The notes under the pieces were generated by a model that did no database searches, was not told the DNA's origin, and saw only the letters and a list, made by a program, of their open reading frames with translations. A stretch of 26,344 bases of DNA from Corynebacterium rhinophilum (GTDB lineage: Bacteria > Actinomycetota > Actinomycetes > Mycobacteriales > Mycobacteriaceae), in the NCBI RefSeq assembly GCF_030227225.1, contig NZ_JASPHQ010000022.1, positions 1 through 26,344 on the forward strand, read 5' to 3'. This document shows positions 23,752 through 26,344 of this stretch, one piece after another. The stretch's first letter is position 1, and each line of letters opens with the position of its first letter. Made by a program: the position numbers and the translations under genes.

Positions 23752-24981
23752 ATGTCTAACCCACGCCTGCGCCGCAGGGTGCAGTACTCCGCCGCATTAG
23801 TTGCCTCCGCAGTGCTACTGGCCTCCTGCCAGAATCCGGCCAACCAGGAGGATAAAGATGAGGCTTCGGCTACACCGACGACTACCTCTTCTTCTACTTC
23901 CGCGGAAAAGACCTCAGAAGCATCTTCCACGGCATCGAGTTCTAGCTCCGCTACCAGCTCCAGTAGCGCCAGCAGCTCCGCCACAAGCTCTTCTACCACT
24001 TCCGCCAAGTCGAGCGGCTCCCACGCCAAGCAGCGCTCCGAAATCGAGGGACATGTGGTGGTGCTTTCTACCGGCGGCACCATCGCCAGCACCCACGATG
24101 ACAAGGGCGCGGTGGTGCCCACCGTAAAGGGCTCTGACCTGGTGGACCCGCTGTACTCTGAATTCGACAAATCCAAGCTGGAGCTTGAGGTCAAAGACAT
24201 TGCCAACCTGGATTCTTCTGCGATGACCTTGGCCGATACCGATAAAATCATCACCGCCGTACAGGAGCAGCTAGAGCGCGATGACGTCGATGGCGTCATC
24301 GTCACCCATGGCACCGATTCCATGGAAGAGACCGCCATTGCGCTCGATACTTTCCACGACAGCGATAAGCCCGTCGTGCTCACCGGCGCAATGCGCCCGT
24401 TCGATGACAACGCCCCAGACGGCCCGGAAAACCTTGCTACCGCGGTAGAGACCGTCACCAACTCGGACTATGCCGGCCACGGCGCATTCATCGCCTTTGG
24501 CGGCAAGATTATCCCCGCCCGCGGCGCGTTCAAATCTGATACAGAAAAGGCCGATGGCTTTGCTACCAATAGCCAGGCGAAATTCCCAGAACGCCCCGAG
24601 CCGCTGAAGTACGCTCCGCTTGGCGATGTCCTCGTAGACATCATCGCCGCCTACCCCGGCGCCCCAGCGGATCTCATTGAGCAATCCTTGGCCAAGGGCG
24701 CACAGGCCATCGTGATTGAGGGCATGGGTTCAGGAAATATCGGCCCCGATCTGGCTAATGCCGCCATGGAAGCCGCCAAGTCCGTTCCCATCGTGCTCAC
24801 TACCCGCGTGGATCACGGACCCGTCGAGGGTATCTACGGCGGCACCGGTGGCGGTGCCACGCTTGCCGATGCCGGCGTCATCCCTTCCGGCAACCTCCGC
24901 GCGCCCCAAGCCCGCATGCTGCTCGCAGCTGCAGTTGCCACGGGAACGGATGCACAGAAGCTCTTTCCAACTGCAAAATGA
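23752..24981 (+). CDS. Lipoprotein L-asparaginase
   Basis: The enzyme hydrolyses asparagine to aspartate and ammonia, here outside the cytoplasm. The 409-residue precursor has a signal peptide (RLRRR, then a hydrophobic stretch to residue 24), lipobox LASC with Cys26, and a Ser/Thr/Ala-rich linker (about 40-92) with low complexity. The catalytic domain shows STGGTIAS (Thr110), THGTDSMEET (Thr188, Asp189) and ARGAFKSD with Lys258, the type II asparaginase set. No ribosome-binding site or clear promoter is seen. 89 bases separate it from the thioesterase gene. Confidence 0.92.
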   Translation: MSNPRLRRRVQYSAALVASAVLLASCQNPANQEDKDEASATPTTTSSSTSAEKTSEASSTASSSSSATSSSSASSSATSSSTTSAKSSGSHAKQRSEIEGHVVVLSTGGTIASTHDDKGAVVPTVKGSDLVDPLYSEFDKSKLELEVKDIANLDSSAMTLADTDKIITAVQEQLERDDVDGVIVTHGTDSMEETAIALDTFHDSDKPVVLTGAMRPFDDNAPDGPENLATAVETVTNSDYAGHGAFIAFGGKIIPARGAFKSDTEKADGFATNSQAKFPERPEPLKYAPLGDVLVDIIAAYPGAPADLIEQSLAKGAQAIVIEGMGSGNIGPDLANAAMEAAKSVPIVLTTRVDHGPVEGIYGGTGGGATLADAGVIPSGNLRAPQARMLLAAAVATGTDAQKLFPTAK

Positions 24982-24992
24982 GGCCGTATACT
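24964..24992 (+). promoter_or_regulatory. Promoter of the Panacea-Doc module
   Basis: TATACT (24987-24992) is a good -10 with predicted start near 24999. TTTCCA (24964-24969), 17 bases upstream, is a weak -35. The promoter overlaps the last codons of the asparaginase gene, so the module has its own transcription start. Confidence 0.45.
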
Positions 24993-25019
24993 TTAGCGCG
25001 ACGCTGAAAGGAGGAAAGC

Positions 25020-25625
25020 ATGGCTGAAATTTTTGACGTTGGGCAATACATAACTGAGCGCATTCCCAACGTGGACAAGCTCAAGCTGTACAAGCTGTGC
25101 TACTTCTCCCAAGGCTGGCATCTGGCGTGGACGGGCCGACCATTATTCCAAGCGGAGTTTCAAGCGTGGCGGCACGGCCCTGTTTCCCGTGAGCTGCACA
25201 TTCAAACCTGGCAGGTAGCGGGGGCTGAAAACCCCTGGCCAGTACCCTATGTTCCCGGTGGTCAGTCCGACAATCTCAGCACATACGAACGTGAAGTAGT
25301 AGATAGCATCATTGCGTTCTACGGCGGAGTTGAATCGACCCGGCTTTCTGACTTGAGTCATGGCCTTGCCTGGAACGAGGCCCGCCGGGGCATCCCGAAA
25401 GACCAGAAGTCTAACGAGAAGCTCCGCACAACGACCCTCCTCCAAGAATTTTCCCAAGCGATAAACTCCCACAATTCCACCCCACGACCTCCGCTACAAC
25501 CAGCAGAAGTTCTTTTGCCTAATGTTGACCTCGACGGAGACGTGGATGAACTCTTAGCCTCGCCGCAGGCCAAGGAAATCGAACAAGACTGGTGGGAGAC
25601 TTTCCGGATATTGGCGGACCGATAA
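25020..25625 (+). CDS. Panacea-domain (SocA/DUF4065) protein, probable antitoxin
   Basis: The Panacea domain (DUF4065) is known from SocA of Caulobacter and as the antitoxin of PanAT systems, where it neutralises many kinds of toxin. The 201 residues show the family pattern KLYKLCYFSQGWHLA (22-36), PLF, and AWRHGPV (49-55), over a domain of about residues 8-125. The C-terminal part (about 150-201, PPLQPAEVLLPNVDLDG, then EQDWWETFRILADR) is outside the domain, and has a Trp-rich amphipathic end that could bind the toxin. AAAGGAGG lies five bases before the ATG. The Doc gene follows after six bases, a typical antitoxin-first pair. Confidence 0.88.
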   Translation: MAEIFDVGQYITERIPNVDKLKLYKLCYFSQGWHLAWTGRPLFQAEFQAWRHGPVSRELHIQTWQVAGAENPWPVPYVPGGQSDNLSTYEREVVDSIIAFYGGVESTRLSDLSHGLAWNEARRGIPKDQKSNEKLRTTTLLQEFSQAINSHNSTPRPPLQPAEVLLPNVDLDGDVDELLASPQAKEIEQDWWETFRILADR

Positions 25626-25631
25626 ACAGGC

Positions 25632-26099
25632 ATGCCGTCTGAAAAAGAAGAGCTAACGGACGAGGAAAAAGCCGCAGACTTCCTCGTCCGCGCTGCGTGT
25701 AGCTTGAATAAGCAATGCGAAAACCGAGTAGAGGGTGACAATCACGTTCACGCATACTCGGGCTACGCAGTTGATATTCCATCCCTCGAATCCGCGATTT
25801 TTGCACCATTCCAAGTCATTATGGGCCAAGAGCGCCGCCCAGGTATATATGACCGAGCAGCCGCGTTACTAGTTCATGTAGCTAAGGCACATGCGTTTCA
25901 CGATGGAAACAAACGCACTGCTCTACATTTAGCCATCTTTTATTTAAGGCTGAACGGAATTACCGTTCGCCCAACACCGAATGCAGAAGCGGGAGCAGAT
26001 CTCGTTACTTCTGTTACTAGTTCCGAAGAAGATTTGGATGCCCTCGTGCACTATGTCAGCACCACATTAGTAAAGTGGACAACGCTCAATCGGGGCTAG
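25632..26099 (+). CDS. Doc/Fic-family toxin
   Basis: The 155 residues carry HAFHDGNKRT (87-96), the Fic/Doc active-site motif with catalytic His87, Asp91 and Arg95. The Lys94 in GNKR, where AMPylating Fic proteins have Gly (GNGR), is the mark of Doc, which phosphorylates elongation factor Tu and stops translation. The length is close to that of Doc-type proteins (126 residues in P1), with about 25 extra N-terminal residues of high charge. The start ATG is six bases after the Panacea stop and has no strong ribosome-binding site, so translation is probably coupled. The gene is visibly more AT-rich and uses rarer codons (TTA, CTA) than its neighbours, a sign of horizontal gain. Confidence 0.87.
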   Translation: MPSEKEELTDEEKAADFLVRAACSLNKQCENRVEGDNHVHAYSGYAVDIPSLESAIFAPFQVIMGQERRPGIYDRAAALLVHVAKAHAFHDGNKRTALHLAIFYLRLNGITVRPTPNAEAGADLVTSVTSSEEDLDALVHYVSTTLVKWTTLNRG

Positions 26100-26100
26100 G

Positions 26101-26313
26101 TTATTTGTTTCTCATTCCCCACGAGAATTCAAATATCTTGTCTGCCTGGCGCTGCAAATTCAAAAGTCTAAGGCACACCGGACGAAAAGCACCGGAAGCG
26201 GGTCCAAAAAGATTAGCCAGTGGGGCTAATGCAACCCGATTGGTCAAGTCCGTTTGAGTGGTGTTTATACCTTTCGATAGAGCATGCAGTGTGATGGTGT
26301 CAGGGGCCAGCAC
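26101..26313 (-). CDS. Small hypothetical ORF, doubtful
   Basis: A minus-strand frame of 70 codons starts with GTG 26313 and ends just past the Doc stop. It has no recognised motif and no ribosome-binding site. A TAA lies five codons before its GTG in the same frame, so it does not continue off the window. The protein is mixed in character (TLHALSKGINTTQTDLTN, then basic). It contains a terminator-like hairpin at 26207-26230. I would not call it a gene without homologues. Confidence 0.15.
   Translation of the reverse strand: MLAPDTITLHALSKGINTTQTDLTNRVALAPLANLFGPASGAFRPVCLRLLNLQRQADKIFEFSWGMRNK
26207..26230 (-). terminator. Possible terminator on the minus strand near the right edge
   Basis: ATTAGCC (26212-26218) and GGCTAAT (26224-26230) form a perfect seven-base stem with a five-base loop, followed by CTTTTT on the minus strand. 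It would stop leftward transcription entering from beyond the right edge, towards doc. The remaining 26100-26344 shows no gene I can support. Confidence 0.4.
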
Positions 26314-26344
26314 GTGCTCGGTGCTTTAACTGGTTCATGCGACC

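Follow-up and report, generated by a model that had tools for sequence, protein, structure and literature searches.

A Panacea–Doc gene pair of the PanAT kind in Corynebacterium rhinophilum: site history and association of the antitoxin tail with Doc in the genus

The PanA and Fic/Doc proteins of Corynebacterium doosanense were characterised in 2022 as a PanAT toxin-antitoxin pair, on the evidence of rescue in E. coli, a complex recovered by pull-down and specific inhibition of protein synthesis (PMC8832971). In 2023, the same PanA was described as carrying two added C-terminal helices, termed Phd-C, that are predicted to contact the active site of Doc; according to that report, removal of Phd-C abolishes neutralisation, and Phd-C by itself does not neutralise Doc but does so when fused to SUMO, with the Panacea domain being proposed to act as a sensor (PMC10440598). 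These two papers were the only ones found in the literature on the Panacea domain in Corynebacterium. The pair described here was called uncharacterised in a first-pass annotation made from the DNA letters, which holds for this copy; its kind had been characterised in the same genus in 2022-2023.

The pair is located near the end of the window, by which we mean the whole 26,344-base stretch of C. rhinophilum DNA that was analysed, equal to the entire contig C14 of a 2.47 Mb genome in 92 contigs. The first gene, panA (25020..25625, + strand), is a complete frame for a 201-residue Panacea-domain antitoxin and is separated by six bases (25626-25631) from doc (25632..26099, + strand), a complete frame for a 155-residue Doc-type toxin. 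PanA matches the Pfam model SocA_Panacea (PF13274) over residues 23-118 with 64.8 bits (cut-off 25.7) and contains, within HGPVSREL, the sequence GPV (residues 53-55) that is named as the Panacea signature in PMC8832971; a search of the PDB with PanA gave no match. Doc matches Pfam Fic (43.9 bits, cut-off 24) and the curated NCBIfam Doc model DOC_P1 (TIGR01550; 46.9 bits, cut-off 38.65), and its four PDB matches, the best at E = 7.3e-10, are all named death-on-curing proteins. Its motif HAFHDGNKR (residues 87-95, codons at 25890..25916, + strand) fits the Doc consensus HxFx(D/N)(A/G)NKR given in PMC4177925. Frames, domain matches and motif thus confirm the annotated arrangement of a Panacea protein followed after six bases by a Doc protein with HxFxDGNKR. 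A broken active site or a Phd-like partner elsewhere had been named as points that would count against the pair: the motif is intact, and the genome holds only one Fic/Doc match and no match to the Phd/YefM antitoxin family (PF02604) at E ≤ 0.001, so that the pair falls outside Phd-Doc in the strict sense.

We consider it highly probable that the window pair is a type II toxin-antitoxin module on the chromosome, one of the Doc subtype within the PanAT kind, operating by the mechanism proposed below. The annotation had likewise proposed a PanAT-type module with Doc as the toxin, and the domain matches, the co-occurrence in the genus and the published C. doosanense experiments all back it. panA and doc would probably be co-transcribed from a promoter just before panA. 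A promoter-like site (TTTCCA-17-TATACT, 24964..24992, + strand) overlaps the 3′ end of the upstream asparaginase gene and is weak, with one site found against 0.8 expected in shuffled sequences; its -10-like hexamer reads TATACT in four of five aligned sequences and TATAAT in G006, and a ribosome-binding-like AGGAGG (25009..25014, + strand) is present in all five. Freed Doc would stop translation, most likely by phosphorylating EF-Tu, a target suggested by analogy with P1 Doc. PanA would bind Doc, its helical C-terminal tail (Phd-C) blocking the active site of the toxin, and the Panacea domain would serve as a stabilising, possibly sensing, platform; toxicity, rescue, binding and the role of the tail are here modelled on the C. 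doosanense work. That Doc is instead an AMP-transferring Fic enzyme, or acts on a target other than EF-Tu, is in our judgement unlikely: the chemistry does vary among Fic-fold enzymes (PMC10440598; PMC4177925), but position 8 of the window motif carries Lys instead of Gly, a replacement taken to distinguish the phosphate-transferring Doc type (PMC4177925), and in C. doosanense the related toxin acts specifically against protein synthesis (PMC8832971).

The surroundings of the pair are chromosomal. panA sits directly after the asparaginase gene, and GC content falls along the module from 60.4% in asparaginase to 54.7% in panA and 49.5% in doc (59.3% for the whole window), which bears out the AT-richer module end noted earlier and fits a foreign origin. 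The supposed syntenic edge, by comparison, is really the end of the contig. The assembly breaks off there inside an IS256-type element (26242..26344), which lies outside both genes and begins 142 bases downstream of doc. When compared with the region of one IS256-family transposase record, this segment (85% identity) and the end of contig C76 of the same genome (87%) fall at opposite ends of it, and the 8-bp direct repeat ACCCGATT that precedes the element (26234..26241), a target-site duplication, is also found beside the other IS end on C76 (L094:2607-2614, reverse complement). Since opposite IS ends and the same eight bases are found on the two contigs, a single IS256-type insertion after doc split the assembly. 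The HlyIII gene of this genome is located near the end of C76, and we infer the order asparaginase-panA-doc-IS-hlyIII. Carriage of the pair by a phage or plasmid was considered and rejected, the flanking genes being of chromosomal type; no match to Doc was found in the plasmid collection at E ≤ 1e-5, and the matches in 23 phage records are all below 60% identity. Assignment to a known defence system was also rejected: the PADLOC models gave no PanA match at E ≤ 0.01 and only five candidate models for Doc, the best being PDC-S23 (8.3e-11).

Comparison with relatives shows the history of the site stepwise, from flanks that adjoin without the pair through the whole module to a toxin remnant and a site from which the toxin is gone. 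In G005, the asparaginase gene is next to the HlyIII gene, with neither panA nor doc between them, and another PanA-Doc pair is present elsewhere in the genome. In G006, panA is full-length at the same site and doc is reduced to a remnant of approximately its first 31 codons. Three relatives, G153 (same species), G105 and L091 (Corynebacterium sp. ACRPS), also have panA behind the asparaginase gene, with doc gone and the HlyIII gene next; the orphan PanA of all three has lost, in frame, a stretch of 57 bases that corresponds to residues 121-139 of the window protein (25380..25436, + strand; ends uncertain by a base or two in the alignment). The orphan loci at the window site are L067, L068, L091 and L069. 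G005 was one of three further strong asparaginase loci compared besides the same-site relatives; at the other two (G004 and G011), no HlyIII, PanA or Doc gene was found in the flank examined. Judging from the arrangement of these loci, the arrival of the module at the site, or else its loss from the site in G005, predates the split between the window's species and G006. Transfer, which the first-pass annotation had suggested, is therefore partly upheld: the adjoining flanks in G005 make either an arrival at this site or a loss in G005 plausible, but a recent gain in this strain is rejected by the four relatives (G153, G105, G006 and L091) that keep PanA at the site, and the edge that had been cited is an assembly break. 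For panA, dN/dS is 0.10-0.22 between the window and G006, G153, G105 and L091, and 1.06, on very few changes, between G153 and G105. The L091 protein has a core like that of the window and a second half of the deleted type and looks like a recombinant of two allele types; because panA alleles recombine in this way, the dN/dS values are no clean proof of selection.

Across a genus sample of 201 genomes that includes the C. rhinophilum genome itself, match rows at E up to 1e-3 number 76 for the window Doc, spread over 66 genomes, and 89 for the window PanA, spread over 59. Rows of the two proteins are neighbours on the same strand in 30 of the 201 genomes, broken copies and remnants counted. Among the 28 Doc rows below E = 1e-10, 25 are preceded on the same strand by a Panacea row. 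This is co-occurrence beyond chance, and the refuting outcome named in the annotation, a pair that does not co-occur in other genomes, was not seen. The two proteins also diverge together: for the 15 intact pairs (of 20) that were compared, distances among the PanAs correlate with those among the Docs (r = 0.82, permutation p = 2e-4, an optimistic value, as the loci are related).

The surroundings of all 89 PanA rows were then searched with a Doc profile built from 21 Doc proteins (20 from the loci plus P1 Doc), a Doc being called intact when one open frame covers profile positions from at most 20 to at least 130 and includes the motif. Of the 38 long, intact PanAs, 20 adjoin an intact Doc and 11 a broken or shortened one, and 7 have none. 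Decay is thus lopsided, with 18 loci at which an intact PanA accompanies a broken or absent Doc and one (G194 C9) at which a broken PanA accompanies an intact Doc, a count that leans towards PanA because the loci were gathered with PanA as the query; a second case against the trend, after G194, is G024, where the small tail protein is frameshifted and the Doc next to it looks whole. More decay of Doc than of PanA is what would be expected if Doc is harmful without PanA, and orphan antitoxins are reported to be common elsewhere (PMC7192599). The same figures could be turned against the window copy, in that the module might be decaying or silent in this strain and its Doc now harmless: 18 of the 38 genus loci have a broken Doc or none at all, the four relatives compared at the window site have lost it or retain a shortened form, and an IS element starts 142 bases after doc. 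We nevertheless regard this as improbable, given that the two frames of the window run uninterrupted from start to stop, Doc retains its motif, the IS has spared the two genes, and public proteins include Docs that are almost identical (P0023, 95% identity; P0024, 93%). Another public protein, P0026 from C. accolens, is a near-identical Doc with a late start and end residues unlike those of the window protein, and is probably another broken copy.

The presence of a C-terminal tail on PanA follows the Doc gene through the genus. This Phd-C-like segment (approximately residues 150-201, 25467..25622, + strand), ending WWETFRILADR and assigned a function by comparison with PMC10440598, is distinct from the Panacea domain, as annotated, with PanA terminating in EQDWWETFRILADR. 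In the 201-genome sample, Doc or pieces of Doc lie beside 31 of the 38 tail-bearing PanAs and beside none of the 15 tail-less ones (Fisher p = 2.7e-8; the loci are not phylogenetically independent, so that p values are optimistic), the remaining 7 of the 38, which count against our reading, having no recognisable Doc adjoining. Rows enter the count if the PanA match has E of 1e-15 or less and its frame is open throughout, and a PanA is scored as tail-bearing at 176 residues or more, a cut that was chosen after the lengths were known. It should be noted that 36 of the 89 PanA rows fall outside the count: 30 have E > 1e-15, of which two, both in G096, are near a Doc piece; four are broken within the match (G196, G066, G191 and G179); and two are pieces of G194 C9. 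The earlier suggestion that the tail holds the neutralising element is backed by this association together with the published work on the C. doosanense tail. A further point against our reading is that the window tail has no significant similarity to that of the more distant G005 PanA (shuffle p about 0.2); each of the two resembles the tail of the G053 protein.

The 15 tail-less Panacea proteins of the genus are 149-162 residues long (e.g., L108, L109, L111 and L113). The C. rhinophilum genome has a second Panacea protein of 149 residues (L084:2436-2885, - strand), which lacks a Doc-type tail and is followed after two bases by a 142-residue frame (L084:2005-2433, - strand); a Panacea protein like it is present in G153, G105 and G006 as well.

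The notion that the globular Panacea domain rather than the tail neutralises Doc, or that PanA is a protease adaptor as SocA is for SocB (type VI), can draw on reports that Panacea alone neutralises some toxins and that SocA is a ClpXP adaptor (PMC8832971; PMC10440598) and on a weak SocA_antitoxin match of PanA (49.1 bits), but it is very unlikely, in view of a score far under the cut-off of 190, a partner that is Doc and not SocB, a tail that tracks Doc (31/38 versus 0/15), Docs whose small partner has a similar tail and no Panacea domain, and a C. doosanense tail without which neutralisation fails and which neutralises when carried on SUMO (PMC10440598).

These Panacea-less partners bear on the proposed role of the tail within the PanAT module. 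The three strong Doc rows that lack a Panacea neighbour (G147, G024 and G178) have a small upstream frame with a similar tail, frameshifted in G024; those of G147 (55 residues) and G178 (62 residues) have a stop that overlaps the Doc start, and neither has a Pfam match. An order-level search with Doc gave a match in 83 of 298 genomes, and 29 loci were examined: one (L164) has a 49-residue tail-like frame before Doc, again with no Pfam match; another (L163) has a Panacea protein as partner (66 bits); and most of the others have partners of approximately 65-70 residues of a ribbon-helix-helix-like sort. Within the genus, 13 of the 20 weaker Doc rows examined have an upstream frame of approximately 68 residues or slightly more, which looks ribbon-helix-helix-like; of two such proteins tested, one gave ribbon-helix-helix matches below the cut-offs and the other only weaker ones. 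In shuffle comparisons, the tail of the G178 small protein is clearly similar to the G005 PanA tail (0 of 500 shuffles) and marginally to the window tail (p = 0.076), that of G147 is marginally similar to the window tail (p = 0.058) and not to the G005 tail (p = 0.37), and that of L164 shows a weak likeness to both (p = 0.018 and 0.016, respectively). The proteins at L030:1851-2036 (- strand), L022:1779-1943 (- strand) and L164, each 49-62 residues long, located directly before a whole Doc and bearing a PanA-like tail without a Panacea domain, are candidate tail-only antitoxins, the tail likeness being clear for one and weak for two. Conversely, relative to the G013 protein (L118), the G123 PanA (L230) has lost, in frame, 363 bases that contain the Panacea core, with the tail still open and Doc broken. 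Antitoxins that consist of a neutralisation domain alone are known (PMC10440598); in the titles and abstract openings of the literature found, none is named as a tail-only antitoxin for Doc, which proves little.

Taken one step further, these observations allow a tentative proposal, which is possible although we lean against it: that the tail, and not Panacea, may be the heritable unit of Doc immunity in Corynebacterium, usually borne on Panacea and in a few operons on domainless proteins of 49-62 residues, so that natural tail-only Doc antitoxins would exist. On this proposal, tail-bearing PanAs would outlive the toxin, with the orphan of the window clade, which has lost 19 residues in frame, being kept open in several genomes and possibly giving lasting protection against incoming Doc modules. 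The genus-wide counts add an evolutionary line of support, independent of bench experiments, for the link between tail and Doc, and the role of Panacea, left open in 2023, can be tested by comparing Panacea-bearing and tail-only Doc partners within one genus. What is new here is a further PanA-Doc copy with its site history, together with the tail-only candidate partners; the kind itself was already known in the genus.

Among known systems, phage P1 Phd-Doc (AF234172) has a Doc of the same motif class, and the antitoxin gene comes first in both; the window Doc matches PDB chain 3k33 (E = 1.4e-9), which agrees with P1 Doc over the stretch printed. The antitoxins differ, the P1 antitoxin being a 73-residue Phd and that of the window a 201-residue Panacea protein in whose tail no sequence likeness to the Phd tail could be detected (shuffle p = 0.77), again a point against our reading. 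No P1 Phd likeness was found in eight Panacea or tail-only tails (shuffle p = 0.12-0.93), and one of two ribbon-helix-helix-like tails weakly resembles it (shuffle p = 0.016); the relation of Phd-C to P1 Phd in PMC10440598 is a structural analogy, whereas the comparison here is one of sequence. SocA-SocB of Caulobacter (type VI) has a Panacea antitoxin in common with the window pair and a different toxin, and assignment to that system is rejected on the SocA_antitoxin score and on the partner. In the Mycobacterium abscessus prophage prophi68-1, genes 3 and 2 encode a Panacea protein that matches all 201 residues of PanA (30% identity) and then a Fic/Doc protein; unlike the window pair, this one is prophage-borne and has the motif HPFHEGNKR. 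Its Panacea protein is deposited as 'GepA-like toxin' and its Fic/Doc protein as 'antitoxin' (L247:3001-3953), labels that look swapped. The C. doosanense PanA:Doc pair (WP_018022804.1/WP_018022803.1) is likened to the window pair by its published description, with the bench data belonging to C. doosanense and the window pair being known from its sequence: both are two-gene modules of the same genus, in which a Panacea antitoxin with a C-terminal extension is paired with a Fic/Doc toxin.
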